Virus record (IMG/VR): IMGVR_UViG_3300047564_001122
Coordinates: 1 to 26,833 of that record
Strand: one strand, 5' to 3'
Length of the DNA stretch: 26,833 nt
Source: a virus
Position numbers and translations under genes: made by a program
The notes under the pieces: model-generated
Seen by the model: only the letters and a program-made list of their open reading frames with translations
Told to the model about the DNA's origin: nothing
Databases searched by the model: none
In this document: piece by piece, positions 2,809-23,769 of the stretch
Numbering within the stretch: position 1 is the stretch's first letter
Layout: every line of letters begins with the position of its first letter

Positions 2809-4217
2809 TGGCAAAACGTAAGGCATCCCGTGACCAGCTGGAGATTGCGCTGAAGACTGCGCAGAAGGAGCTGGCGATCACTCACCTGCGAGCGTTTGAA
2901 GCAGCAAAGGAAACTCGGCGCACCGAGAACTGGTACACCAAGAATGGCGGGCCCAATTCTGATATTCGCGTTGCGTTGAGCATGCTGGTGCGACGGCACC
3001 AGGACTTGATCGATTCCAATCCTTGGGCCAACCGTGCCATCAAGGTCATCTGCAACAACTGGATCGGTGATGGGATCATCGGATCACCGGTTGGTGCGTC
3101 GAAGCGTTACTTGGGCGCATGGAACGATTGGGCGGACACGGTTGAGTGTGACCATGACGGCAAGCTCAACTGGTATGGGCTGCAGAACCTGATCGCCCGT
3201 ACGACGGCTGCTCGAGGGTCGTGCCTGATCCGGCGACGGGTGGATGAGACGATGATGAATCAAGGGCTGGTGCCCTTGCGGCTGCAGGTGATGGAGCCGG
3301 ACATGCTGGACATGGGGAAGGACGACGGCAGCCGGATCAAGTTTGGCAAGCAGTACAGCATCAGCGGTCGGCTGGAGGGCTACTGGCTGCGGGACACGCA
3401 CCCAGGGGAGACCGACTGGCGTGGGGTGAAGATCAGCTCTACCTTTGTGCCAGCCTCTGAGATCCTCCACACGTATGAGGTGCTGAGGCCCCAGCAGGCG
3501 ATTGGTGTGCCGTTTGGGTCGTCGGTGCTGCTGCACCTGCGTGATGTTGAGGATATTGCGCAAGCGCAGCTGCTCAAAACAAAGATCGCGGCATGCTTCA
3601 CAGCTTTTGTGTACAGCAATGAGCCATCAGAGTTTGATGCTGGCGGCAGTGTGCTGACGGAGTCGCTGGAGCCTGGCGCGATTGAGATCCTGCCTGATGG
3701 CAAGCAGATCACATTCTCCAACCCACCGCAATCACCGGATTACGTCAGCCATCAGAAGCACCATTTACACGCAATCGCGGCCGGGTATGGAGTGACGTAT
3801 GAAGCATTGACCGGCATTCTGTCGGATGTGAACTTCAGCTCAGCCCGTATGGGTTGGATTGAGTTCCACCGCAACGTGGCGGCATGGCGTTGGAACGTCA
3901 GCATCCCGCAGGTGATGGATCCGATCCATCGGTGGTTCAATGATGCCGCAACGCTGGCCCAGGTACGCGGTCCACGCAAAGTGGTCTGGACGCCACCGCG
4001 GCGTGAGCTGGTGGATCCAGCGAAGGAGATGAGTGCCTTGATTGAAGGCGTGAAGGCTGGCTTCATGTCCCTCTCTGAGGTGCAGAGATCTCTTGGCTAC
4101 ATTCCGACTGAAGTGATGGACGAACTGCAGGCAGACATCGCCAATGCTCGAATCAAGGGGCTGTCCTTGAGTGTTGATGGTGGAGAGACTCAACCTCTTG
4201 GTGTTGAAGTTCCATAG
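2808..4217 (+). CDS. Portal protein (lambda GpB family)
   Basis: The 469-residue protein would form the dodecameric ring through which DNA enters and to which the connector binds. Recognisable lambda-family (PF05136) stretches include DLIDSNPWANRAIKVICNN (about 58-76), RRRVDETM, the HTYEVLRPQQAIGVP segment (about 220) and the YGVTYEALTGILSDVNFSSA-type motif (about 330-350). I chose the ATG at 2808 because it overlaps the gpW stop (TGATG) and follows AGAGGG; an upstream in-frame ATG at 2775 would overlap gpW by 34 bases. It is followed 9 bases later by the protease/capsid gene. Confidence 0.93.
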   Translation: MAKRKASRDQLEIALKTAQKELAITHLRAFEAAKETRRTENWYTKNGGPNSDIRVALSMLVRRHQDLIDSNPWANRAIKVICNNWIGDGIIGSPVGASKRYLGAWNDWADTVECDHDGKLNWYGLQNLIARTTAARGSCLIRRRVDETMMNQGLVPLRLQVMEPDMLDMGKDDGSRIKFGKQYSISGRLEGYWLRDTHPGETDWRGVKISSTFVPASEILHTYEVLRPQQAIGVPFGSSVLLHLRDVEDIAQAQLLKTKIAACFTAFVYSNEPSEFDAGGSVLTESLEPGAIEILPDGKQITFSNPPQSPDYVSHQKHHLHAIAAGYGVTYEALTGILSDVNFSSARMGWIEFHRNVAAWRWNVSIPQVMDPIHRWFNDAATLAQVRGPRKVVWTPPRRELVDPAKEMSALIEGVKAGFMSLSEVQRSLGYIPTEVMDELQADIANARIKGLSLSVDGGETQPLGVEVP

Positions 4218-4226
4218 CCTGACGGC

Positions 4227-6161
4227 ATGGAACACAAACCTCCTTGTGATCTGCGTCGCGCTGCATTCCAGCCAGCGACACTGAACCGCGACAGCCGAAC
4301 GATCGAGCTGACGTGGACGACAGGAGCACGAGGGCGTCGTGCGTCCTGGTTTGATGGCGACTGGTATGAGGAGCTCGATATGAGCGCTTCTGCCGTTCGT
4401 CTCGACCGGTTGAACAGTGGCGCTGCGCTACTGAACAACCATCAATCTGGTGACCTGTCCAACATCCTTGGGGTGGTGGAGAGGGCATGGATTGAGAACG
4501 GGGAAGGCCGTGCGCGTGTGCGCTTCAGTGAGCGTGCAGACGTTGATCCAATTTGGAACGACGTTGCAAACGGCATCATCCGCAATGTCTCGGTTGGGTA
4601 TCAGGTCCATCGGTGGTCTGATCCCATTCGTGGTGCGGAGAAGGATCCCCCGACCTACAGAGCGCTGGATTGGGAACCAATGGAGCTCAGCCTCGTTGGT
4701 GTGCCATTCGACGCCGGTGCCCAGACCCGAAATTCAATCACGGACACTTCCATGCCCGATCTCCTGAAAAGCCAGGCCGGAGGTGATCCGGCCGTTGTGC
4801 AGCAGCCTGCGGAGCAGGTGCGCGCTGCGGACCCCAATCCCCCCCAGCCTGAGCCGGTGCCTGCCGCCGATCAGGAGCTGCAGCGCACTGCTGCTGAACT
4901 GCGTCGTGAGCGCGACCTGCTGCGCCTCGGCCAGGAAGCTGGCCTTACCGCTGAGCAAACCGATGAGCTGATCCGTTCCGGTAAGTCGGTGATGGACTGC
5001 AGCCGTGAAGCGGTGCGGCTGGTGCGGGAGCGACTGGAAGGCAACACGCCGACCATCGCCAACCCTGCTCGCGGTATCGAGGTCACCCGCGACCAAGGCG
5101 ACACCCTGCTGCGTGGCATTGGTGAAGCCCTGTCCGCTCGGGTGATGCCCGGCAATCCCGTCAGTGACCTGGGCCGTGAGTATCGCGGCTACAGCCTGAT
5201 CGAGTTCGCCCGGATGTACCTCGAGTCGCGTGGTGTCAACACCCGTGGGCTGAGCAAGACCGAGATCGTCACCCGTGGTTTCCATTCCACCAGTGATTTC
5301 CCGCTGCTGTTCTCCAACCTGGCCGGCAAGTCGCTTGACGCTGCCTATCAGGAGGAGCCCCACACCTGGAAGCCGATCGCCCGGCAACGCAACCTGCCCG
5401 ACTTCAAGCTGGCCTCCGATCTCGTGATCGGTGGTGATCTCACTCCTGAGGTGCTGCTCGAAGGTGGTGAGTACCGCGCCGGCACGCTGAAGGAAGCGCA
5501 GCATCAGTGGAAGCTGGCGACCTACGCCCGCAAGCTGACGGTCACTCGTCAGGCGATCATCAACGACGACCTGTCGGCCCTCGAGGGTGTGCCCGAAATG
5601 CTGGGCCGTGGCTTCCGTCGTCTGGAATCCAACCTGGTCTGGGCCCTGATCACCGGTAATGCGGTGACCAGCGTCGACGGTCAGGTGCTGTTCCATGCCA
5701 GCCACAACAACACCGGCAGCGGCGCGATTGGCACCACGGGCTTCAATGCCATGCGGAAGGCGATGCGGAAGCAGACCGACATCGCGGGCAACACTGTCAA
5801 CCTTGCGCCCAGCTACATGATGGTGCCGACGGATCTGGAGGCCACTGCTCTGCAGTTCCTCTATCCGACGGGCTTCATGCCGAGTGCCCGCGTCGGCGCT
5901 GATGGCCCTGTGACCGCGCAAACCGCCGGGATGCAGCTGATCGTTGAGCCGCGGCTTGATGGTTCGGCCACTCAGTGGTACGCCGCTGCGGCGCCTGGTG
6001 CGGTGGAAGGCATCGTTTACGGCTACCTCGCTGGTGAGGAAGGCCCGACGGTGACCACGAATGAGAAGCGTGATCCTGATGGCGTTGAGCTGCTGGCCCG
6101 CTTCGACTTCGGTTGTGCGGTGAAGGACTACCGCTTCATCTATCGCTCCTCGGGTACCTGA
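4227..6161 (+). CDS. Prohead protease / major capsid protein fusion
   Basis: This 644-residue single chain joins an S78-type (HK97-like) prohead protease to an HK97-fold major capsid protein. Residues about 15-175 are the protease: the catalytic-type His is in LLNNHQ (H72) and the Ser in NVSVGYQV (S122), followed by the family-typical MELSLVGVPFD (152-162). Residues 176-300 are a Pro/Gln-rich linker and charged helices, which fit a scaffold-like delta region. From about 320 the capsid domain follows, with GDLTPEVLLEGGEYRAGTLK and TRQAIINDDLSAL-like segments. The protease would release itself and the scaffold during head maturation. An internal ATG at residue 176 (about 4752) could start a separate capsid product, but no good ribosome site precedes it. 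The same fusion is known in other siphoviruses. Confidence 0.92.
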   Translation: MEHKPPCDLRRAAFQPATLNRDSRTIELTWTTGARGRRASWFDGDWYEELDMSASAVRLDRLNSGAALLNNHQSGDLSNILGVVERAWIENGEGRARVRFSERADVDPIWNDVANGIIRNVSVGYQVHRWSDPIRGAEKDPPTYRALDWEPMELSLVGVPFDAGAQTRNSITDTSMPDLLKSQAGGDPAVVQQPAEQVRAADPNPPQPEPVPAADQELQRTAAELRRERDLLRLGQEAGLTAEQTDELIRSGKSVMDCSREAVRLVRERLEGNTPTIANPARGIEVTRDQGDTLLRGIGEALSARVMPGNPVSDLGREYRGYSLIEFARMYLESRGVNTRGLSKTEIVTRGFHSTSDFPLLFSNLAGKSLDAAYQEEPHTWKPIARQRNLPDFKLASDLVIGGDLTPEVLLEGGEYRAGTLKEAQHQWKLATYARKLTVTRQAIINDDLSALEGVPEMLGRGFRRLESNLVWALITGNAVTSVDGQVLFHASHNNTGSGAIGTTGFNAMRKAMRKQTDIAGNTVNLAPSYMMVPTDLEATALQFLYPTGFMPSARVGADGPVTAQTAGMQLIVEPRLDGSATQWYAAAAPGAVEGIVYGYLAGEEGPTVTTNEKRDPDGVELLARFDFGCAVKDYRFIYRSSGT

Positions 6162-6201
6162 TGGAGCCTGTTCTAATCAATCAACCTGAGGACTTCTTCC
6201 G

Positions 6202-6537
6202 ATGAAAAACTTCGTTCAAGAGGGTGAGTACCTGCGGATGACGGCACCGTATGCCGTCAGTTCCGGTGGTGGCGCCCTGGTTGGTGCCACGTTCGGCGTG
6301 GCTGTGACCGATCTGGCCAATGCTGAGGTCGGTGTGTTCGCCCTGGAAGGGGTGTACACGCTGACCAAGGCGACGGGTGCCAGCACCGGCGGCGCGCAGG
6401 GCGCCAAGGCGTACTGGATCGCTGCAGACAAGAAGGTGACTGCTGCCTCGAGTGGTAACACCCTGATCGGGGTGTTTGCTGCCACCTGCGCCGATGGTGA
6501 CGCGACCGCGAATGTGCGGCTGAACGGATCGTTCTGA
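6202..6537 (+). CDS. Head decoration/cement protein, DUF2190 family
   Basis: The 111-residue protein begins MKNFVQEGEYLRMTAPYAVSS, a DUF2190 signature, followed by GGGALVGATFGVAVTD and the closing V.LNGSF strand. DUF2190 proteins sit on the capsid surface and stabilise the head, taking the role of lambda gpD. The position directly after the capsid gene supports this. A TGAGGA ribosome site lies at 6187-6192, 9 bases before the ATG. The gene is followed at once by a strong GC hairpin (6547-6566). Confidence 0.88.
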   Translation: MKNFVQEGEYLRMTAPYAVSSGGGALVGATFGVAVTDLANAEVGVFALEGVYTLTKATGASTGGAQGAKAYWIAADKKVTAASSGNTLIGVFAATCADGDATANVRLNGSF

Positions 6538-6546
6538 TCCTGACCT

Positions 6547-6579
6547 GGCCCCGGGAAACCGGGGCCTCCATTCTTCATT
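6547..6579 (+). terminator. GNRA-capped 8-bp hairpin after head genes, probable intrinsic terminator
   Basis: A perfect 8-bp GC stem (GGCCCCGG at 6547-6554, CCGGGGCC at 6559-6566) encloses a GAAA tetraloop at 6555-6558. It is followed by a broken T-rich stretch (tccattcttcatt, 6567-6579). The stem is very stable, but the T-tract is interrupted, so this may be partial termination or an RNA-stabilising end for the abundant capsid transcript. It lies 9 bases after the decoration-protein stop. Confidence 0.6.
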
Positions 6580-6590
6580 GAGGCACAGCC

Positions 6591-6857
6591 ATGGGCGCTG
6601 CGGTTGGATTTCTTGGGAGCGATGGCAAGGGCCGGACGGTAAGCCCGAGCGATCCGCTGCCGATCGTCACTGGCTTCTCGATTCCGAAGCACGACTACGC
6701 GGAGCTGAGCTACACCGGCAGCGACATGACTGGCGTCACCTACAAGCTGGGCGGCACCTGGGACACTTCCACCAACATCTACACGGGCGGAACCATCGTC
6801 GGCCAGCTGGAGCTGGTCTACGACGGCGGGAACCTCGTCCAGATCGTGGAGGTCTGA
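6591..6857 (+). CDS. Small hypothetical protein preceding the adhesin
   Basis: This 88-residue protein is not recognised. It is rich in Gly, Thr and Tyr, has no membrane segment, and its C-terminal half (LGGTWDTSTNIYTGGTIVG) looks like beta structure common in virion proteins. It starts 24 bases after the hairpin stem, with GAGG at about 6580-6583 as the likely ribosome site, and ends 3 bases before the adhesin ATG, so the two are probably co-translated. The context suggests a structural or fibre-associated protein, but no function can be assigned. Confidence 0.7.
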   Translation: MGAAVGFLGSDGKGRTVSPSDPLPIVTGFSIPKHDYAELSYTGSDMTGVTYKLGGTWDTSTNIYTGGTIVGQLELVYDGGNLVQIVEV

Positions 6858-6860
6858 CCC

Positions 6861-8318
6861 ATGGGATACCAGTTCAATCCGTTCACGGGCAATCTTGACA
6901 TCGTTGGTGACGGCGGTGGTGGCGGTGGTGACGGTGGCGACATCACGGCAGTCACAGCAGGCACCGGCCTGAGCGGCGGCGGCACCAGCGGCTCAGTGAC
7001 GCTGAGCTTGGCCAACACGGCCGTGACGGCCGGCAGCTACACCTACGGCTCGTTCACGGTTGACGCGCAGGGGCGGATCACCAGCGCCAGCAACGGCACA
7101 GCTCCTGTCACGGGAGTCACCGCGGGCACGGGCCTCAGCGGTGGCGGGGCCGGTGGAGGGGTGACACTCACCCTGGCCAACACGGCCGTGACGGCCGGCA
7201 GCTACACCTACGGTTCGTTCACGGTTGATGCCCAGGGGCGGATCACCAGCGCCAGTAACGGTACGGCTCCTGTCACCAGCGTGACGGCCACCGGGCCGAT
7301 CAGCAGCAGTGGCGGCACCACGCCAACGATCAGCACCAGCATGGCAAGCAACCGCCTGTTGGGCCGCACTACGGCAGGGACCGGCGTTGCTGAGGAGATC
7401 AGCATTGGCACGGGCCTGAGCCTCACTGGCGGCACGCTGTCCAGCACGGGCGGTGGTGGTGGTGGCGGCACATCCCTGGATGTGCAGGTCTTCACGGCCA
7501 ACGGAACGTGGACAAAGCCGGCTAATGCAGAGCTGGTAAAGGTCTGGATGGCCGGCGGTGGCGGTGGCGGTGGCTCGGGCCGCAGGGGCGCATCTGGCAC
7601 CGATCGTGGTGGTGGTGGCGGTGGCGGTGGTGCTGCCTGTGTTTACTTTGAGGCCAATCCATCACGATTTAATGCAACAGAAGCGATTGTCATCGGAGCT
7701 GCTGGAGTTGGCGGCGCTGGGCCAACTACCAATGATACCAATGGCGCAAATGGCACCATAGGCGGCACTACAACATTTGCGGGCATTAACGCCGTAGGCG
7801 GCAACTTTGGCTCTGGAGGATCAACAACTGGCGGCGCCGGAGGAGCGGCAAGGGCATTTACTTGTTTCTATCAAGGGTTTGATGCCGCCCTGGCTTCTAC
7901 TATTGCCGGCGGGGATGGATCCGCTACCGGCTCGGGTGGTACCATTTCCGCTTGCACGGGAATTAGATCAAATGGCGGCGGCGGCGGCTGTGGAATTACA
8001 TCTACAAACACTAGAGTTGGAACAGGTGGTTCCTCGCAAGGAATTTCTGGCGGAACAATCGGCACAGTTTTCCCAGGCGGTAGCGCAATAACAGGAGACG
8101 GAAGTAATGGCCAAGACGGCAGCCTCATTCGTTATTTTGGTGTAGGTGGCGGCGGTGGTAACGGTCATCCAACCGGGTCGGGTGGCCGAGGAGGTGATGG
8201 CATTGCCTATGGCGCAGGCGGCGGCGGTGCAGGTGCAAGCCTCAATGACAATGTTGGCGGCAGAGGCGGCAATGGTGGACCTGGCGTTGTTGTAATCATC
8301 ACCACGATCAAGCCATGA
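6861..8318 (+). CDS. Tail fibre/adhesin with tandem repeats and glycine-rich C-terminal domain
   Basis: The 485-residue protein is likely a receptor-contacting fibre. Residues 1-30 ([19 protein letters not shown]) form a short attachment region. Residues 31-140 are two 55-residue repeats containing [20 protein letters not shown], a module common in fibres. Residues about 150-210 carry [19 protein letters not shown], also typical of fibres. From about 212 ([20 protein letters not shown]) to the end is a polyglycine domain with runs of 6-8 Gly and repeated GGNG/GGAG turns, like the Gly-rich C-terminal domains of tail adhesins. Base use shifts to AT-richer from about 7640, inside the Gly-rich part, suggesting a separately acquired receptor-binding end. 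Its last four bases overlap the next gene (ATGA). A fibre gene between head genes and gpFII is unusual. Confidence 0.8.
6951..7280 (+). repeat. Two 165-bp in-frame tandem repeats in the adhesin gene
   Basis: Repeat 1 spans 6951-7115 and repeat 2 spans 7116-7280; each encodes 55 residues. The second two-thirds are nearly identical at the DNA level (for example, the stretch around 7012-7050 recurs at 7177-7215), while the first third has diverged. This indicates a fairly recent duplication within the fibre shaft, and the repeats could recombine to vary shaft length. Confidence 0.85.
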
Positions 8319-8758
8319 AAAGGATTGCACACATCGCCGATGGCTTTATCGCCAACATCTCCATCCTCCCGGATAACTTTGAGCTTCCCGTAGATACAAT
8401 GCTTGAAAGCGATGCTTTGGAGCAGGGTTATACACGGCGTCCAAAGACAGAAGCCGAGCTGGCCGAAGAGTATCGCTTATCTCATCCGCCACGGTGGATT
8501 GAGTTTAGCGATGCGCTGCCAGTTGAGGTGGATCAGTTGCTAACTGCCGCGCAGGCCGTCTCGCCGCGTCTTGCGCTAGCGCTCGGCGTGGGACTAGGGA
8601 AAGCCGCTGATGGTGACAGTAGAGTATTTCTAAATGCCTGGCAGACGGCTCGTGGTATCGGCTTGGTGTCGCCTGAGCTGATGATTGGCCTTCAGGGATT
8701 GGCTGTGCAGTTTGACCTGCCTGCTGAGTTTGTTGCTGGCTTGGCTGCATCGCAGTAG
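8315..8758 (+). CDS. Fibre-associated hypothetical protein (possible adhesin companion)
   Basis: This 147-residue protein overlaps the adhesin stop by four bases (ATGA), the usual arrangement for a fibre and its assembly chaperone or cap. The N-terminus ([19 protein letters not shown]) is beta-like, and residues about 60-147 are mainly helical and Ala/Leu-rich. No named domain was recognised. Base composition stays lower in GC than in flanking genes, like the end of the adhesin, so the two probably moved together. A tail-fibre assembly chaperone is a reasonable inference but unproven. Confidence 0.72.
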
Positions 8759-8862
8759 TGGCTTCTCACCATCTCACCAACGGGCAGACGTGGACGGACA
8801 CGAATACAGGCATCGCCTGGGTCTATTCCACCAGCACGAGTAGCTGGACCATCCAGTCGTAG
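8758..8862 (+). CDS. 34-residue mini-protein with a fibre-type TWTDTNTG...W motif
   Basis: A GTG start at 8758 overlaps the previous stop (TAGTG), and the stop at 8860-8862 overlaps another GTG in the same way. The peptide contains GQTWTDTNTGIAWVY followed by TSSWTIQS. Gly-x-x-Trp-x-Asp...Tyr...Ser-Ser-Trp patterns like this are common in short carbohydrate-binding or fibre-tip modules of phages. It may be a genuine small virion peptide or the detached remnant of a longer fibre domain. No Shine-Dalgarno is seen; translation would rely on coupling. Confidence 0.5.
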   Translation: MASHHLTNGQTWTDTNTGIAWVYSTSTSSWTIQS

Positions 8863-8879
8863 TGTCCCCGTCTTCGGCC

Positions 8880-9128
8880 ATGAACCGCCAGCTTGAACTC
8901 ACTGCTGCCGCCGTGGCCCTGCTGGTCACCCTGGTGGGCGGGACCGTGGCGATCGAGAACCGCTACGCCAAGGCCCAGGACGTCAAGCAGCAGCTGAACA
9001 GCATGTATGCCCGTCAGCTCAAGACGCGGATCCTGGAGCTGCAGCTCAAGGCACCAGACCAGTTCACGCCGGCGGACCGGGCCATGCTGCTGCACCTGCA
9101 GCAAGAGCTGAAGGAAGCCACGCAGTAG
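8880..9128 (+). CDS. Small single-pass membrane protein with helical tail
   Basis: This is an 82-residue protein if started at ATG 8880; a GTG at 8862 overlapping the preceding stop would add 6 residues. Residues about 6-25 (ELTAAAVALLVTLVGGTVAI) form a membrane segment. The rest is a charged, Gln/Lys/Leu-rich helix (DVKQQLNSMYARQLK...LLHLQQELKEA) likely to form a coiled coil on one side of the membrane. This layout is shared by spanin-, holin-associated and superinfection-exclusion proteins; none is recognised specifically. It is the last gene before a strong terminator. Confidence 0.65.
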   Translation: MNRQLELTAAAVALLVTLVGGTVAIENRYAKAQDVKQQLNSMYARQLKTRILELQLKAPDQFTPADRAMLLHLQQELKEATQ

Positions 9129-9170
9129 GCGCCTCACGGCTACCGTGGACGGGTGACCTGATCCCATCTG

Positions 9171-9202
9171 GCCGGGTGCTGCGGTAACAGCCCCGGCTTT
9201 TT
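9171..9202 (+). terminator. Intrinsic terminator closing the adhesin cassette
   Basis: The stem pairs GCCGGG (9171-9176) with CCCGGC (9192-9197) and, after one bulged T, GCTG (9178-9181) with CAGC (9188-9191), around a CGGTAA loop. TTTTT follows at 9198-9202. This is a classic Rho-independent terminator, 43 bases after the previous stop. Genes from 9241 onward would need read-through, antitermination or their own promoter; none was recognised in 9203-9240. Confidence 0.85.
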
Positions 9203-9240
9203 GCTGCGCCTTCGCAGACTGAAGGCACTGCGCATTCACA

Positions 9241-9546
9241 ATGGCCGACCCTTGGGATCGATTGCACATGAGGATGTGGGATGCCGCATCCCGTCGCCTT
9301 GGCCGTGTGTCGGTGGTGGCTGGTGCTGTGACCACCACCGGGATGTTTGATCGGCAGTCTGAGCTCATCCTGGATGACCAGGTGATCAGTGTTGAGAATG
9401 CCCTCACGGTGAAGACCAGCGAGCTGGGCACCCTCAGCTATGGCCAGGCCATCGTGGTCGGTGGTGTGAACTACACGGTGCGGCAGGAGCCGATGCGGAT
9501 CGGTGATGGCATGCTCTGCGTCGTACCGCTGCAGGCTGCATCATGA
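9241..9546 (+). CDS. Head-tail joining protein, gpFII-like
   Basis: This 101-residue protein is similar in size and pattern to lambda gpFII. It has a helical N-terminus (MADPWDRLHMRMWDAASRR), then beta strands with GMFDRQSELILDDQ, a Leu-x-Val-x-Thr segment, the LSYGQAIVVGGVNYTVRQ strand pair, and an Asp-Gly-rich closing strand. gpFII completes the head and forms the surface to which the tail attaches. Its TGA overlaps the next ATG (ATGA at 9543-9546). The order gpFII, tail terminator, tail tube is conserved with lambda. No strong ribosome site is visible upstream. Confidence 0.78.
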   Translation: MADPWDRLHMRMWDAASRRLGRVSVVAGAVTTTGMFDRQSELILDDQVISVENALTVKTSELGTLSYGQAIVVGGVNYTVRQEPMRIGDGMLCVVPLQAAS

Positions 9547-9971
9547 GCAGCAAGCGCGAGCAGATTCTGGCGGCGGTCGCCACCACCTTGATCGGTACCA
9601 CTGGGGTGAGTACCAGGATCTACCGCTCGAGGCAGGATGCCTTTGCACGTAACGAGTCGCCGGCATTGGTGATCGAGCCTGGCAAGGACACACCAGCACC
9701 GGAGCCGATCAGCACCTGCAAGATTGACTGGAACTTCCTGCTGGTCATTGCGGTCTACAGCCGCGGTGCCATCCCTGACCAGGTAGCAGATCCAGTGATC
9801 AGCTCAATCCACACCAAGCTGATGGCAGATCGCAGCCTCGGCGGGCTGGTGATGGACATCTGGCCTGGCGAGGTCGACTATCAGTTTGAGCGTGGCGATC
9901 TACCGGCGCTCTGGACTGTGATGCCTTATCAAGTGCGCTATCGCACCAGTGTCACTGACCTGAGTGCATAG
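9543..9971 (+). CDS. Tail terminator protein (gpU-like)
   Basis: The 142-residue protein begins with a helix (MSSKREQILAAVATTLIG) followed by TRIYRSRQDAFARNESPALVI, a recognisable tail-terminator pattern in siphoviruses. Residues about 58-142 are alternating beta strands ending in a VRYRTS strand. Such proteins form a hexameric ring that caps the tail tube at its finished length and binds the head connector. The position between gpFII and the tube protein supports this. Confidence 0.8.
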   Translation: MSSKREQILAAVATTLIGTTGVSTRIYRSRQDAFARNESPALVIEPGKDTPAPEPISTCKIDWNFLLVIAVYSRGAIPDQVADPVISSIHTKLMADRSLGGLVMDIWPGEVDYQFERGDLPALWTVMPYQVRYRTSVTDLSA

Positions 9972-9998
9972 CGTGAGACTGAAGCTGTAATCGGTGAC

Positions 9999-10175
9999 AT
10001 GCCTACGTTGGATGAGAACTGGGGTCTCGGTGGTAGCTACCTCCTGGATCCTAAAACCGGAAAGCGCAAGCTCATTGAGCGGACAGCACCGGCACTCACT
10101 GCTTCCGACTCTGATCCCGAGGTGATTACTGATGGCACTGCTGTCTCGCAAACGCCTGATCCTGGCGAAGGCTGA
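9999..10175 (+). CDS. Small hypothetical protein between tail terminator and tail tube
   Basis: This 58-residue reading frame starts MPTLDENWGLGGSYLLDP and continues KTGKRKLIERT. Short proteins with a Gly-Gly-Ser/His-Tyr...Asp-Pro-x-Thr-Gly...Glu-Arg-Thr pattern occur at this position in many lambda-like phages. Its 3' end overlaps the tail tube gene by 44 bases in another frame, and the tube's GAGGT site (10119-10123) lies inside it. Function unknown. It fills an otherwise empty 160-base gap, which supports it being real. Confidence 0.6.
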   Translation: MPTLDENWGLGGSYLLDPKTGKRKLIERTAPALTASDSDPEVITDGTAVSQTPDPGEG

Positions 10176-11064
10176 GTCTGTCTACGGGACAGATGCCAGT
10201 CCTGCTGGCACTGATGCCGTCCTGGTGCGTAACCTCGACATCACGCCGATCTCGGCTGATGTGGTGAGTCGTGATCTGATCCGCCCGTATATGGGCAACT
10301 CAGATCAGCTGATCGCCAACAGCAGGGTTGAGATCAGCTTTGAGGTGGAGCTGGCCGGTTCCGGCACTGCAGGGACTGCTCCACGGTACGGCGCTGTCCT
10401 GAAGGCATGTGGCCTCAGTGAGACGACTGTGGCTGCCACCAGCGTCACTTATGCGCCGGTGAGTGCGAGCTTCAGCAGCGTCACGATCTACTTCAACGCT
10501 GATGGCCTGTTGCACAAGCTGACCGGTTGCCGCGGCACCTTCACGATGAGCTGCCAGGTGGGGCAGATCCCCGTGCTGCAGTTCCAGATGACCGGCGTCT
10601 ACAACGCCCCAACGGATACCGCTGCGCCCGCTGTGACCTACAGCAACCAGGCAGCGCCGCTGGTTTTCCGTGATGGCAACACCTCGGCGTTCCAGCTGCT
10701 GTCCTATGCCGGCTGCCTGATGTCGGTCGACTTCAACATGGCCAATGAGGTGGCGTACCGCGAGCTGATCGGCTGCACCAAGGAGGTGCTGATCACCGAT
10801 CGCAAGCCTGCTGGTACGGCCACCATTGAGGCACCGACGATTGCGGCGAAGGACTTCTTTGCGGCATCGCTGGCCACCACCACCGGCAACCTGACGTTCT
10901 TGCATGGCACCACTGCCGGCAACCGCGTCACCTTCACCGCTTCCCAGGTGGATGTCGCAAACCCCACCTATAGCGACACCGATGGGGTGCTGATGCTGAG
11001 CGTGCCGTATGTGGGGCTGCCGACCACTGCTGGCAACGACGAGCTGTCGCTGGCCTTCACCTGA
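10132..11064 (+). CDS. Major tail tube protein
   Basis: The 310-residue protein begins MALLSRKRLILAKAESVYGT followed by DASPAGTDAVLVRNLDITP, the N-terminal signature of the siphovirus tail-tube family (Phage_tube_2-type). The body is beta-rich with many Thr/Val strands and closes with a domain including VANPTYSDTDGVLMLSVPY. It would stack in hexameric rings to form the tail tube. The ribosome site GAGGT (10119-10123) lies 8 bases before the ATG. The chaperone pair and tape measure follow, as expected. Confidence 0.9.
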   Translation: MALLSRKRLILAKAESVYGTDASPAGTDAVLVRNLDITPISADVVSRDLIRPYMGNSDQLIANSRVEISFEVELAGSGTAGTAPRYGAVLKACGLSETTVAATSVTYAPVSASFSSVTIYFNADGLLHKLTGCRGTFTMSCQVGQIPVLQFQMTGVYNAPTDTAAPAVTYSNQAAPLVFRDGNTSAFQLLSYAGCLMSVDFNMANEVAYRELIGCTKEVLITDRKPAGTATIEAPTIAAKDFFAASLATTTGNLTFLHGTTAGNRVTFTASQVDVANPTYSDTDGVLMLSVPYVGLPTTAGNDELSLAFT

Positions 11065-11097
11065 GCCAGTTCATCCCACCCTCTACCTTCAACCCCC

Positions 11098-11442
11098 ATG
11101 GCATTCACCCTGTCGCAGACGGCTTCGTATAAGTGGCCGGTCACCTTGTCGATTCCTGCCGATGGTGGGAAGTTTGACAAGTTCGTCTTTGATGCGGAGT
11201 TCCGGCGGTTGAGCCAGACCCGCATCCGGGAGATTGGTGATGCCATCTCGGCTGGTGATTCCGATGATCCCAGTGTGGCTCGCGAGATCCTCTGCGGCTG
11301 GAGTGGCATCAACGATGAGCAGGGCAAGGCCATTCCCTTCAGTGAGAAGGCCATGAATGACCTGCTGGATATTCCGATGGTGGCCACCTTCATCATGCGC
11401 GCCTGGTTTGCCAGCCTGAAGGGAGCGAAGGTAAAAAACTGA
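11098..11442 (+). CDS. Tail assembly chaperone (lambda G analogue)
   Basis: The 114-residue protein sits between the tube and tape-measure genes, where siphoviruses carry their G-type chaperone. It starts MAFTLSQTASYKWPVTLSIP, then a charged helical body (FRRLSQTRIREIGDAI), and ends KGAKVKN-stop. Chaperones of this kind coat the tape-measure protein and recruit tube subunits. The last two sense codons are AAA AAC, which form a -1 slippery site, so a fraction of ribosomes would extend it by 105 residues into the next frame. No ribosome site is obvious in the 33-base gap upstream. Confidence 0.85.
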   Translation: MAFTLSQTASYKWPVTLSIPADGGKFDKFVFDAEFRRLSQTRIREIGDAISAGDSDDPSVAREILCGWSGINDEQGKAIPFSEKAMNDLLDIPMVATFIMRAWFASLKGAKVKN

Positions 11443-11472
11443 TCGACGCCGCTGAGCATTGGGCTCGCGGCG
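11433..11472 (+). promoter_or_regulatory. Programmed -1 ribosomal frameshift signal (A AAA AAC + stem-loop)
   Basis: The heptamer A AAA AAC (11433-11439) is in the correct zero-frame phase (GTA AAA AAC TGA). After 7 bases a stem-loop begins: CGCCGC (11447-11452) pairs with GCGGCG (11467-11472), and inside it GAGC (11454-11457) pairs with GCTC (11463-11466) around an ATTGG loop. A GGGAG Shine-Dalgarno-like element at 11421-11425 may assist. A -1 shift enters an open frame running to 11756, giving a 219-residue G-GT type protein. Confidence 0.9.
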
Positions 11473-11756
11473 GGAACAGCAGCAAGCAGTTGGATGCTGA
11501 TGCTGCAGCATTCAATGTGACGATTGAAGAGGAAGAACCAGAACTGTTTGAGGTGTTCCCAGAGAACTGGCCAGTGGTTCAGATGTTCCTCAGGTTGCAG
11601 ACCCAGTGGCGTGTTGGTGGTATGGGTTTGATTGGGTTGGATTATGGCGTCGCGCAGTGGCTCTTTAGCCTGTATGCAGTGGAAGATCCCACAGCCATGC
11701 TTGAGGATCTGCAGGTGATGGAAGCAGCTGTACTCATCAACGAGCAGGAGGGCTGA
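11439..11756 (+). CDS. Frameshift extension of tail chaperone (lambda T analogue)
   Basis: The frame entered by the -1 shift at 11439 encodes 105 residues, beginning LIDAAEHWARGGNSSKQ. No ATG exists near its start; a TTG at 11490 is the first possible independent start, so frameshifting is the likely route. The segment is acidic (TIEEEEPELFEVFPENW) and then helical, resembling DUF1799-type proteins found at this position in other siphoviruses. The T domain of the fusion is thought to bind tube subunits while the G domain binds the tape measure. The stop overlaps the tape-measure ATG by one base. Confidence 0.85.
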   Translation: MIDAAEHWARGGNSSKQLDADAAAFNVTIEEEEPELFEVFPENWPVVQMFLRLQTQWRVGGMGLIGLDYGVAQWLFSLYAVEDPTAMLEDLQVMEAAVLINEQEG

Positions 11757-19700: not shown

Positions 19701-20088
19701 GCCAACATGGGGTGAGTGGCAGGAGTTTGCCAATGCCATTGTGCGTGGTCGTGGCTTCCAGTTTCAGGTCGTCGCTACTTCCGCTGATCCGAGTCATAAC
19801 ATCTCGATTGAAACGCTTGGCGTAGAGGTTGAGCTGCAGCAACGCATCGCTGAACCGGCGGCTGTGATTACCAGCGGCACCTCCACCTATTCGGTCTCCT
19901 TCGCAGCACCGTTCTACCAGGCGCCGCAGATTGGAATCACTGCGTACAATATGGGGACAGGTGATTACTTTGCCATCACTGCAGTAACACGCACTGGCTT
20001 TGACGTTACCTTCAGGAACTCTGCTGCCACTGTTGTCAGTCGGCAATTTACCTATTCTGCGATTGGTTACGGCCGGGAGATCATCTAA
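16786..20088 (+). CDS. Central tail tip / host specificity protein J
   Basis: The 1100-residue protein has the gpJ layout. The N-terminus includes DLLSEGEIEGLVGGAKGIYL (about 46-65) and the baseplate-hub beta domains with YRIRGIKVKVPT. The middle holds the WILYDLLISKRYGFGDHI stretch (about 304-321), a strong J-family marker. Two fibronectin-III-like domains follow (about 635-735 and 740-840). The last about 70 residues (YQAPQIGITAYNMGTGDY, then TGFDVTFRNS) look like a compact beta lectin-like receptor-binding domain. It would contact the cell-surface receptor and trigger DNA release. Length is close to lambda J (1132). Its stop overlaps the next gene (TAATG). Confidence 0.95.
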   Translation: MTKLIAGDGGFNRAAASAVGYKGRQAQGTPNTDPDSLDSSQYATILDLLSEGEIEGLVGGAKGIYLDNTPLQNPDGSLNFTNVQADARNGTQNQTFIPIASDISNEIPVGVVVLENTPIVRTITDPTVGAVRITLSFPRLEQYQADGDIRGVSVRLRLSVQYNGGGYVTVIEDTVRGRTADLYQRDYRITFTSNVKPVDIKVQRLSEDSASPQYVDAFQWTSYTELTYGRLSYPNSALVALRINAEQFSNIPSRSYRIRGIKVKVPTSVAYVDQTNGRLVYASGPWNGLFTAAAWTTDPAWILYDLLISKRYGFGDHIIEAQLDKWAFLAASQYCAELVSDGFGGVEPRFTCNVAIQTAEDAYKLISDMCSVFRAMPFWSGGAVTISQDRPVDSSYLFTLANVGEDGFTYQGSSLKQRPTVAVVSYLDLESRDIAYEAVEDQAAIARYGVVTTEISAFACTSRGQAHRIGEWLLYSEQYEGEIVTFTTSLDAGVMVRPGQIIEIADPVRAGTRRGGRIVAATTTTITLDDITSISALTSGTISVITPSGGVQSRTYVSRSGSIVTVTPAFSVAPNVNSVWVWQTNDVQTSTWRVLGVQEQEQSQYTISALSYNVSKYNYVERGVPLQARDITNLNIVPPPPAALSASETLYESNGRAESKIVVSWRSVSGVLNYRLRYRFGNDNWVTVDSRSAVDYEITNSQPGIYSIEVYSLSPANIPSRTAAQLTVNTYGKTALPANITGLNLVPIDSASAILSWDRATDLDVVLGGKILIRHNPLLVGATWEQSAEIVAATAGGQTQKQVPLLEGTYLVKAEDDGGRRSAAASTVVADLPTPQPRLLVLTYREDLETPPFSGNTTGMFYSADQSGIIISGGIEVDSMATDGNWDGLVSIDAVGGINASGSYEFGSTLDLGGVYDINLRRILGIAPFVPGELIDDKTANIDDWTGIDDLAPDDVNAALYVRSTADDPSGTPTWGEWQEFANAIVRGRGFQFQVVATSADPSHNISIETLGVEVELQQRIAEPAAVITSGTSTYSVSFAAPFYQAPQIGITAYNMGTGDYFAITAVTRTGFDVTFRNSAATVVSRQFTYSAIGYGREII

Positions 20089-20816
20089 TGGCACAAGCAG
20101 ACCTCAACGTCGCCAACGCATCTGGTGCTTCCTTCCGGCAGGACATCAACAATCAGCTGCTGGCCTTGGGCACCCTGCAGAGTGGCGCCTCCGCACCGAG
20201 CACGACCTACGCCTACATGCTGTGGGCGGATACCGCAAACGACCTACTGAAGGTCCGCAACAGCGGCAACAGCGGCTGGATTGAGGTCGGCACCCTATCG
20301 CTGGAGAACTGGGGCTTTGGCCGATTGCGGCTGGAGACCACCAAGCTGACCACCAGCGGCACCTCTGTCGACTTCACCGGCATCCCCAGCTGGGCAAAGC
20401 GGATCACGTTGAGCTTGGCTGCTGTCAGCCTGAGCGGCGCCAGCAACCCCGTCGTGCGGCTGGGTGACTCCGGTGGCATTGAGACCAACAACTACCTGGG
20501 CGCCACCTCCCTGGTTGGCCCGACGACCACCACCGGCTCCTATGCCCACTCCTCCACCTCTGGCTTCAACCTGCTGGGTGCGACCCCATCGGCAGATACT
20601 GTCGATTTCCACGGCTCCCTGATCCTCACGCTTGTCGAGGCATCGTCCAACACCTGGTCCTGCATGGGCAACATGGCGCGGACTGACGTGATCCAGGTGA
20701 ATCAGATTGCTGGCAGTAAGGCATTGTCAGCCACGCTTGATCGCATCCAAATCACTACCGTCGGCGGCGCCAACACCTTCGACGCTGGTAAGGCCAACAT
20801 CATCTATGAAGGTTGA
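20088..20816 (+). CDS. Tail fibre-like protein after J
   Basis: The 242-residue protein starts with a module (LNVANASGASFRQDINNQ, then GASAPSTTYAYMLWAD and NSGNSGWIEVG) that recurs at the N-terminus of fibre proteins in phages; it probably docks to J or a tip protein. Residues about 80-242 are a Ser/Thr/Gly-rich beta domain (IPSWAKRITLSLAAVSL) ending in a short strand, possibly a jelly-roll-like receptor-binding domain. Start overlaps the J stop (TAATG). It is the second candidate adhesin here besides 6861-8318. Confidence 0.8.
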   Translation: MAQADLNVANASGASFRQDINNQLLALGTLQSGASAPSTTYAYMLWADTANDLLKVRNSGNSGWIEVGTLSLENWGFGRLRLETTKLTTSGTSVDFTGIPSWAKRITLSLAAVSLSGASNPVVRLGDSGGIETNNYLGATSLVGPTTTTGSYAHSSTSGFNLLGATPSADTVDFHGSLILTLVEASSNTWSCMGNMARTDVIQVNQIAGSKALSATLDRIQITTVGGANTFDAGKANIIYEG

Positions 20817-22582: not shown

Positions 22583-22909
22583 ATGGTCCCGGAACTCAGT
22601 CTGACGATGGAGCTTGGACTGGAAGCGGCCAGGCGTGAACTGCACCAGATGAATCGCGACGAAGCAATCGCGATGGCCGATCAATTCATGGGTCGTTCTG
22701 TCATGCAGGAGGTCTGCCTGCGCAACAGCCTCAAGCGGGTGGCAGAGCTTGAGATTCAACTGGCGATCATGCAGGCTGATCCCTATGTCAATGGCAAGAC
22801 AAGTTGCCCGGGGCAGGAGCGCACCCGACGCCATGGTATTCGCGGGATGTGGAGCACGCTGGCGCATGCCATCGGTGCTGGTGGCAAGGGTGCAGCAGGT
22901 GAAGCCTGA
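22583..22909 (+). CDS. NblA/Ycf18-like small protein (putative phycobilisome degradation factor)
   Basis: From ATG 22583 the protein has 108 residues (GTG at 22565 would add 6). Residues about 3-55 match the NblA pattern without gaps: ELSL..EL.L...R.E.HQM.RDEA, followed by a second helix with Met/Glu and ending NSLKRV. In NblA proteins the equivalents are ELSLEQEF.L, a QMS.EQA turn and a closing LLK. NblA is a helical-hairpin adaptor that directs phycobilisomes to Clp proteolysis; several freshwater cyanophages carry it. Residues beyond about 70 are unrelated, Gly/Arg-rich and overlap the sigma gene on the other strand. The match is from memory of the family, so this is a candidate only. It may be expressed as the last late gene, 199 bases after the endolysin. 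Confidence 0.5.
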   Translation: MVPELSLTMELGLEAARRELHQMNRDEAIAMADQFMGRSVMQEVCLRNSLKRVAELEIQLAIMQADPYVNGKTSCPGQERTRRHGIRGMWSTLAHAIGAGGKGAAGEA

Positions 22910-23769
22910 ACGGCACCCAGCAGGACCCCTAGGCGATCGCGGGCATCACTGATCAATCCTTCCACCTCCCGCATCCGTAGGCCCTCTATACGGGCCAGAG
23001 CGGTGATGGATTGCGGGCTGCCATTCAAGCCGTAGTGCCCCATTACCAGCCGCTGCTGCAGGGGATCCAGTGTTGTGATCGCTGCAGTCAGGTTCTCACG
23101 TCGCACCAGATCATCAAGCTGATCGATCCAGTTCCCTTCACCATCGGCTAGCAGGCTGCCTAGTGGGCTGTGCTCATCGTCACCTGCGGCAGCATCCAAT
23201 GACGCACATGGCATGGCCATCTGCAGGATGGCAGCCAATCGATCTTCGGTGACGCCCATCCGGTGGGCCAGCTCATGGCGTGATGGCCGGTGGTTGCCTT
23301 CTGCCGCAAGCTGCCGCGTTGCCGCCAACATCTGACCCCAGACTTTGGGATACGTGGTCGGCAGTCGAATCGTATGGGACTGGCCATCGATCGCATTGCC
23401 GACCCCTTGGCGAATCCACCAATAGGCGTAGGTGGAGAACTTGTAGCCGCGTGCGGGATCAAACAGCTCGACGGCACGGATCATGCCCAGGTTGCCAGCC
23501 TGCACTAGGTCCATGAACTCGAGTGAGGTGCGACGACCGATGCGTTGCACGACATGGACCACCAGCCGGAGGTTGGCGCGCACCATTCGATCCTTGGCGC
23601 GCTTGCCGATGCGCTTCACGCTGCGTGGTGCGTGCTCTGACCCGTCGGGATGATCGAGCCAGGCACGCACGGCATTGCCAAGGGTGATCTCTTCTGCGGC
23701 GGTCAGTAGCGGCTCACGGCCGATCTGATCTAGGTACCAGCTGACATCAGACCCTTCGGCTGTCGTCAC
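22783..23769 (-). CDS. Sigma-70 family factor, cyanobacterial group-2-like
   Basis: The 328-residue protein would bind host RNA polymerase core and choose promoters. Region 1.2 is at about 7-36 (DVSWYLDQIGREPLLTAAEE). Region 2 is at about 60-126 with MVRANLRLVVHVVQ, DLVQAGNLGMIRAVE and GYKFSTYAYWWIRQG (2.3/2.4, melting and -10 contact). Region 3 is at about 130-210 (RLPTTYPKVW). Region 4 is at about 225-282, with a recognisable but divergent HTH (QSITALARIEGL...VEGLISDARDRL), suggesting altered -35 choice. Region 1.1 is missing. The YL..IGR.PLLT.AEEI.LG pattern is typical of picocyanobacterial group-2 sigmas. A tail (283-328), Pro-rich then basic, overlaps the NblA-like ORF. Start GTG is supported by GGAGGT. 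Confidence 0.93.
   Translation of the reverse strand: MTTAEGSDVSWYLDQIGREPLLTAAEEITLGNAVRAWLDHPDGSEHAPRSVKRIGKRAKDRMVRANLRLVVHVVQRIGRRTSLEFMDLVQAGNLGMIRAVELFDPARGYKFSTYAYWWIRQGVGNAIDGQSHTIRLPTTYPKVWGQMLAATRQLAAEGNHRPSRHELAHRMGVTEDRLAAILQMAMPCASLDAAAGDDEHSPLGSLLADGEGNWIDQLDDLVRRENLTAAITTLDPLQQRLVMGHYGLNGSPQSITALARIEGLRMREVEGLISDARDRLGVLLGAVQASPAAPLPPAPMACASVLHIPRIPWRRVRSCPGQLVLPLT

Follow-up and report, generated by a model that had tools for sequence, protein, structure and literature searches.

A putative swappable adhesin cassette in the head-tail gene block of an uncultivated lambda-like phage

The viral contig IMGVR_UViG_3300047564_001122 (26,833 nucleotides, analysed at its full length and called the window below) carries a block of open reading frames (ORFs) between the gene of its cement, or decoration, protein and that of its gpFII-type neck stopper (FII), which includes a fibre gene. 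The gene order around this block is portal, major capsid protein (MCP) with protease, cement, block, gpFII, gpU-type tail terminator (U) and tube, and no host genome is attached to the 26.8-kb viral contig. A preliminary description had placed five genes between the decoration protein and gpFII, and this is borne out: five tightly packed ORFs fill 6591-9128, the last four of them overlapping or coupled (ATGA at 8315; TAGTG at 8756 and 8860). Their tight spacing and family matches mark them as real. Neither Rfam families nor tRNAs were found in scans of the window. The features discussed below are as follows, with related loci designated by L numbers.

6202..6537, + strand: cement/decoration protein gene, the left neighbour (Pfam Phage_cement_2, PF09956, E 9.9e-19; PHROG head decoration)
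6547..6566, + strand: 8-bp tetraloop hairpin of the cement gene 3' end (88/88 cells paired in 11 sequences)
6591-6857, + strand: 88-residue ORF, the first of the block
6591..6662, + strand: constant N-terminal stretch of the 88-residue protein, 24 codons, putative virion anchor (nucleotide identity of 77-78%; protein motif)
6663..6857, + strand: exchangeable C-terminal beta domain of the same protein, putative adaptor for FNPFTG-type fibres (divergence in L002; AlphaFold, AF2, model)
6861..8318, + strand: fibre/adhesin gene, 485 residues (Gly_rich_2; PHROG "tail fiber"; repeats; composition)
8315..8758, + strand: fibre companion, 147 residues, with a C-terminal helical-type domain common to many cassettes
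8758..8862, + strand: 34-residue peptide ORF (likeness to the C-terminal extension of longer companion proteins)
8862..9128, + strand: small membrane-type protein, 88 residues, one hydrophobic segment (alternative ATG start possible at 8880)
9170..9202, + strand: predicted intrinsic terminator (one bulge in the 9170-9198 stem; T5 at 9198-9202)
9241..9546, + strand: gpFII-type neck stopper gene, tail-less form (Pfam Phage_attach, PF05354, E 2.7e-10)
9543..9971, + strand: gpU-type tail terminator gene, the right landmark (PHROG tail terminator, E 9e-38)
20088..20816, + strand: second adhesin-type gene, after J (N-terminal part common with post-J genes of L014 and L062)

Relatives were gathered by MCP searches, which gave more than 100 related loci, mostly from freshwater samples as far as record names allow. 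Inserts were found at two sites, site A between cement and FII, as in the window, and the commoner site B between FII and U. Cement, FII and U lie on one contig in 44 loci, a set that includes some duplicates or near duplicates; 32 of these have an insert at site B only, eight at site A only, one at both and three at neither, one of the empty loci being the Rhodobacter outgroup L160. By annotation, Pseudomonas LPPA33 and Roseobacter CRP-406 also have the block without fibre genes. Two cassette sets stand in tandem in L030, and L009/L056 combine a 1,339-residue fibre at site B with a remnant at site A. By gene order, an insert is evidently typical of the clade, placed at either of two sites and with unrelated contents. 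It is true that lambda has no fibre genes here, as had been pointed out, but in the window phage's own relatives fibre genes at this place are the rule. The outcome that the preliminary description had named as speaking against an insertion, the block at the same place with the same base composition in all relatives, is not seen: there are two places and unrelated contents, and the distal half of the window's fibre differs sharply in GC content at third codon positions (GC3).

Comparison with L002 places one exchange junction inside the first gene of the block. In the 5,169 bases that end at 6662, L002 and the window share 98.8% identity; beyond them, L002 has another C-terminus of the small protein and another fibre. 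This comparison, in which near-identical genomes carry unrelated cassettes, covers the left flank only, the right flank having been left out because the L002 contig looks chimeric. The segment 6547-6661 shows 77-78% nucleotide identity in relatives bearing other cassettes, and the encoded start keeps the motif MGAAxGFxGxDGxGRTVSxxDPLP. The small protein is a mosaic, in which the 24-residue start stays constant and the C-terminus comes in three or more unrelated types; the junction, as read from these alignments, lies after about codon 24. The 88-residue ORF matches an uncharacterised PHROG (E 4e-18), and its AF2 model has a confident beta domain at residues 31-88 (predicted local distance difference test score, pLDDT, ~90) and a less certain start. 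The C-terminal type found in the window (IPxHDYxxLSYTGxxLTGVxYK..) precedes fibres starting with FNPFTG in loci of phages that differ widely; most of these loci had been fetched via either gene, L013 and L129 not via the small protein. As a separate observation on L002, its cassette runs at 7976-11665 into reverse-strand tape measure protein, G, tube, U and FII genes, which is probably an assembly chimera, an inversion being possible.

The fibre consists of an FNPFTG-type N-terminus, two 55-residue repeats (165 nucleotides each, 85% identity) and a Gly-rich distal half. Its matches to Gly_rich_2 (E 9e-7) and to a PHROG "tail fiber" family (E 2e-24) are of the adhesin type, as is Mtd_N in the relative L175. 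Fibre GC3 drops from ~0.75 to ~0.3-0.5 at about codon 245 and stays there for the rest of the gene. Windows of 60 codons taken from the other genes give 0.725 +/- 0.088, with a minimum of 0.48; the companion is intermediate. Because its GC3 departs from the rest, the distal half looks more recently acquired than the fibre base. Companion residues 45-147 keep 70-81% identity among phages with very different, or undetected, head genes, which seems a further sign of module traffic; the companion is possibly an assembly factor or a virion protein. The 34-residue peptide is similar to an extension, GxEWTxxxGxxW, that longer companion proteins have at their C-terminus. No relatives of this short ORF itself were found, whereas many contigs contain relatives of the 147-residue and membrane ORFs. 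The membrane protein has relatives in 16 other loci; the order companion, membrane protein, U recurs in L232, L236 and L237, and the two genes are adjacent in L238 and L239. Therefore, these two genes appear to travel together. A PDB sequence search with the fibre and the companion gave nothing useful. A C-terminal peptide, GxFxADDPxTPxxxEAW, recurs in L009/L056 and on companions in L010, L014, L134 and L238, and also on short ORFs.

FII itself varies with the fibre gene that follows it. FII ends diverge beyond a common core, and each type of C-terminal tail pairs with a single type of N-terminus in the ORF that follows. The fibre types were defined by average linkage on 40 residues, single linkage having merged types via low-complexity sequence. 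The pairings are the following.

Tail GVFEAGVFV: fibre start MTLNLxRRxxKGxPLTAxxHDGNLDKLE
Tails TLSGLRxTTL..L, LLLESGDRLLLE or LRTGSGQLLVTGSG: fibre family TITGLPNA..GTERVPMDQ / ISQLPDLG / LSQLDPAA
Tails VLILDGDFL or IYDGGGA: Mtd_N-like starts (Pfam Mtd_N in L175)
Tail in the form of a ~110-residue fibre-like extension: starts xVYVDLDL/xIFTDFDF

Tail scores between FIIs followed by the same fibre type exceed those between different types by 24.3, compared with 4.5 +/- 1.6 when fibre labels were shuffled within FII core clades (0/2000 permutations). In several clades with 85-100% identical FII cores, tails differ exactly where the fibre type differs, which places exchange junctions inside FII as well. 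As a side observation, the FII of L039 (1707-2309) has a C-terminal extension with a weak phage cement domain match (E 0.004, under the Pfam cut-off).

The rule was derived from metagenomic contigs, and the cultured Synechococcus phages S-LBS1, S-CBS1 and S-CBS3 were fetched afterwards by FII or U similarity. All three held-out isolates obey it, S-CBS1 and S-CBS3 being closely related and thus not two independent tests. In S-LBS1, the FII tail ..VPDVFQAGVYL is followed by the fibre start MSLDLVRRLVKGSPLTAAEHDGNLDELE; in S-CBS1 and S-CBS3, tails ..VVMDGGA..VLD.. are followed by Mtd_N-like starts (RNxTAAxWTAxNPxLLQGEIG). All three phages also encode a 61-63-residue protein like the 88-residue beta domain, a small putative adaptor, directly before a FxxNxL fibre, which starts with MxxKxNxL. 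Two further details of these records were observed. In S-CBS3 (L248), an unannotated 63-residue ORF at 3252-3443, homologous to S-CBS1 gp06 and like the 88-residue beta domain, stands directly before "mtd"; in S-LBS1 (L246), a gene annotated as integrase (9941-10795) lies between the fibre and tail terminator genes, inside the swap region. A scan of genomes for prophages and hosts returned only distant MCP relatives, in Bacteroidota metagenome-assembled genomes, and no host genome. The clade consists of lambda-like siphoviruses and probably infects Synechococcus-type cyanobacteria.

The tail/fibre correlation could be mere linkage, the tail being a by-product of overlapping, translationally coupled genes that move with the fibre. 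The FII stop and the next fibre start do often overlap or touch, as this explanation would have it. However, tail changes fall mostly at third codon positions (29/50/101 for T1; 12/0/22 for T3); therefore, the protein sequence has been kept, along with its motifs. Similar tails also recur on FII cores that are less than 45% identical (mean score 30.9 vs 12.5). Furthermore, tails of at least 12 residues are present in 38 of the 39 dereplicated loci with an insert between FII and U, one of the 38 being the outgroup L160 with its non-fibre insert, and in none of the seven without (P = 1.5e-7), that is, FIIs are tail-less where no fibre follows. We therefore regard linkage as the sole cause as rather unlikely.

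A fibre-dependent tail on a stopper protein is most simply a docking site. In lambda, the stopper ring of the neck is a gpFII hexamer, with the C-terminal loop of gpFII at the gpU contact (PMC10721106). The traits of this family are present here: the window FII has the Phage_attach profile and adjoins gpU, and the FII of the relative L005 has a stopper fold, its AlphaFold model matching the lambda neck chain 8k37_M and the R4C stopper 8gtf_M. On balance, we consider it likely that the block is a swappable adhesin cassette in which a fibre and its plug form one unit, probably attached at the neck. The neck is favoured because FII, a neck protein, bears in site-B relatives the tail that varies with the fibre. 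A constant anchor with an exchangeable distal part, as in known neck fibres, is seen both in the 88-residue protein and in the FII tails. The chances are about even that FII acts as a loading dock, its swappable C-terminal tails specifying the neck fibre family and a split 88-residue adaptor doing the job where FII is tail-less. The window FII has 4 residues beyond the core, and the 88-residue protein at site A appears, from its place and mosaic make-up, to be a candidate adaptor, the part equivalent to an FII tail.

Under this scheme, each cassette would comprise a fibre gene and a piece that plugs the fibre into the virion, and recombination would join cassettes inside the plug-bearing gene. 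The plug would be a short C-terminal tail on FII in most relatives (site B); in the window (site A), it would be the 88-residue protein, with its constant 24-residue anchor and an exchangeable beta domain matched to the FNPFTG-type N-terminus. The Gly-rich distal half of the fibre would bind the host surface and the companion may help in fibre folding or assembly, while translation would be coupled along the unit, with the terminator at its end.

Several observations weigh against neck attachment in the window phage. The evidence from FII tails comes from site-B relatives; the window FII is tail-less, so its fibre attaches via another part and could sit on the capsid or the tail. The structure model of the 88-residue protein has no clear match in the PDB. 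A relative of its beta domain precedes a different kind of ORF in L144, and the pairing of this domain with FNPFTG starts also occurs outside the head-tail gene block (L083, L084 and L124). The site-B locus L222 combines a fibre of a tail-requiring type with an FII that has no tail. Lastly, an FII tail and the following fibre N-terminus are neighbouring DNA, and co-transfer alone accounts for part of their correlation.

The pairs in other gene neighbourhoods of other phages agree with a second explanation, which is that the block encodes an ordinary tail or tail-tip fibre, the region being merely permissive for adhesin genes and position therefore uninformative. A second adhesin gene in the usual place, after J, points the same way. 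The preliminary description had taken the adhesin of the block as a second one besides that after J, and the gene at 20088-20816, which has an N-terminus related to those of the post-J genes of L014 and L062, supports this. Both of these records carry cassettes in the head-tail block as well; therefore, part of the clade, at least, usually has two adhesin loci per genome. An ordinary tail fibre is nevertheless unlikely, as it leaves aside that the neck protein FII bears a fibre-matching tail and is tail-less if no fibre stands behind it, and that the FII gene of L005/L180 naturally runs on into a fibre-like segment.

Alternatively, the N-terminus of the 88-residue protein may dock on cement or capsid, site-A genes encoding head fibres and site-B genes neck fibres. 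The site-A gene lies directly 3' of cement in the clade, and head fibres are known in phage 7-7-1 (PMC12796354). On the other hand, a related N-terminus, MTTSFIDAAGKGQTVSPTTPLPV, lies after FII in L013, and S-CBS1 and S-CBS3 hold site-A and site-B genes side by side with no apparent link to the capsid. We find such a division into head and neck fibres distinctly unlikely. A capsid-associated or head-proximal fibre had been suggested for this locus; what stands of it is the neck, the favoured position, since the data nowhere favour the capsid over the neck.

The two elements that had been taken as boundaries of the block differ in kind. The left hairpin (6547-6566) is real in that it has 8 bp, a GAAA loop of the GNRA type and -20.4 kcal/mol (z -3.9 for the 28-nucleotide element, only -0.8 for a 66-nucleotide frame). 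It starts ~10 nucleotides past the cement stop and is found at the same position in 25 loci, in ten of which FII stands directly behind it, with no cassette (L006, L008, L010, L011, L012, L019, L025, L026, L066 and L069). All of its pairs are kept among the 11 distinct sequences, two of them with changes on both sides, and its covariation score was reached by 0 shuffles, a result inflated by kinship among the sequences. The loops are GNRA in some relatives and of the UNCG/YNMG type in others, as expected for a selected RNA hairpin. Because its position and pairing are conserved and FII can lie directly behind it, the hairpin is, by this comparative evidence, a cement 3'-end element that the sub-clade keeps whether or not a cassette is present. 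A left cassette boundary, as had been proposed, is ruled out by its conservation in relatives without a cassette there. In L022/L023, a terminator-like 10-bp hairpin followed by TTTT stands just after cement, in the position taken by the tetraloop hairpin in the window's sub-clade.

The strong terminator with T5 reported after the block holds up as a predicted sequence element. Its stem of 10-11 bp (-20.3 kcal/mol) makes it the sole + strand terminator of such strength, with 0.07 expected per shuffled window; a simpler scan misses 9170-9202 owing to the bulge in the stem. No terminator was found upstream of FII in L030, L034, L068 and L009. A general cassette boundary is ruled out for this element, which is specific to the window among the site-A relatives checked. 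A crude, weak scan of 6000-9600 found no sigma-70-like promoter, other promoter types being outside its scope. A moron-type insertion with its own boundaries, as first proposed, meaning an independent, self-expressed transcription unit brought in by illegitimate recombination, is very unlikely: the block does end in a strong terminator of its own (9170-9202), as morons do, and GC3 of the distal fibre is foreign, but the left hairpin is present without a cassette, the junction lies within the 88-residue gene and not between genes, no promoter-like site emerged from the weak scan, and the insert, which as a moron should be absent from most close relatives, is carried at site A or B by nearly all of them (41/44 loci). 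Elsewhere in the window, 22783-23769 on the - strand encodes a sigma factor of the sigma-70 family, in which Pfam recognises regions 1.2, 2 and 3. For a lambda-like siphovirus to carry such a factor is unusual, and it could divert host transcription or late transcription; by eye only, it looks similar to the group-2 sigma factors of cyanobacteria.

The host range of a phage is usually deduced from its tail-tip and tail-fibre genes. If a neck-attached, swappable cassette is the right reading, the annotation of these abundant aquatic phages would have missed a second, separately evolving host-binding layer, and the type of FII tail or adaptor would give a simple sequence rule for picking the matching fibre in metagenomes. 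We found no published description of tail-coded docking on a stopper protein or of tail/fibre pairing, in a search that reached few subscription papers. Part of the picture is already known, namely adhesin genes annotated in the head-tail block of S-CBS1, S-CBS3 and S-LBS1 ("mtd", "fibre protein", "tail fiber") and exchangeable neck fibres in lactococcal phages. The Synechococcus phages are similar to the window's clade in having FII tails of the same types and small adaptors; in S-CBS1 and S-CBS3 both sites hold genes, and in S-LBS1 only the one after FII, whereas in the window the fibre is Gly-rich, site A alone is occupied and the cassette has a terminator of its own. Lambda gpFII shares the Pfam family, the predicted fold and the neighbouring gpU, but its C-terminus is a short loop where it meets gpU (PMC10721106); relatives of the window bear exchangeable tails of 15-115 residues instead. 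T4 fibritin (wac), which forms collar fibres, is described as a neck-attached accessory fibre with modular C-terminal domain swapping (PMC3797505); it belongs to a myovirus, and the proteins are unrelated as far as compared. The neck passage structure (NPS) of the lactococcal 936 and TP901-1 phages, made up of accessory collar/whisker fibres, has a near-constant N-terminus and several exchangeable carbohydrate-binding C-terminal classes (PMC6669499, PMC4493119). PDB and Pfam searches gave no sequence likeness of the window fibre to NPS or fibritin structures. The window resembles the lactococcal systems in having what may be an accessory neck fibre with a constant start and exchangeable ends. 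In the lactococcal phages, however, anchor and adhesin are one protein, whose gene can lie elsewhere, whereas in the window the putative anchor and the fibre are separate genes, and in its relatives the anchor would be the tail of the stopper protein.

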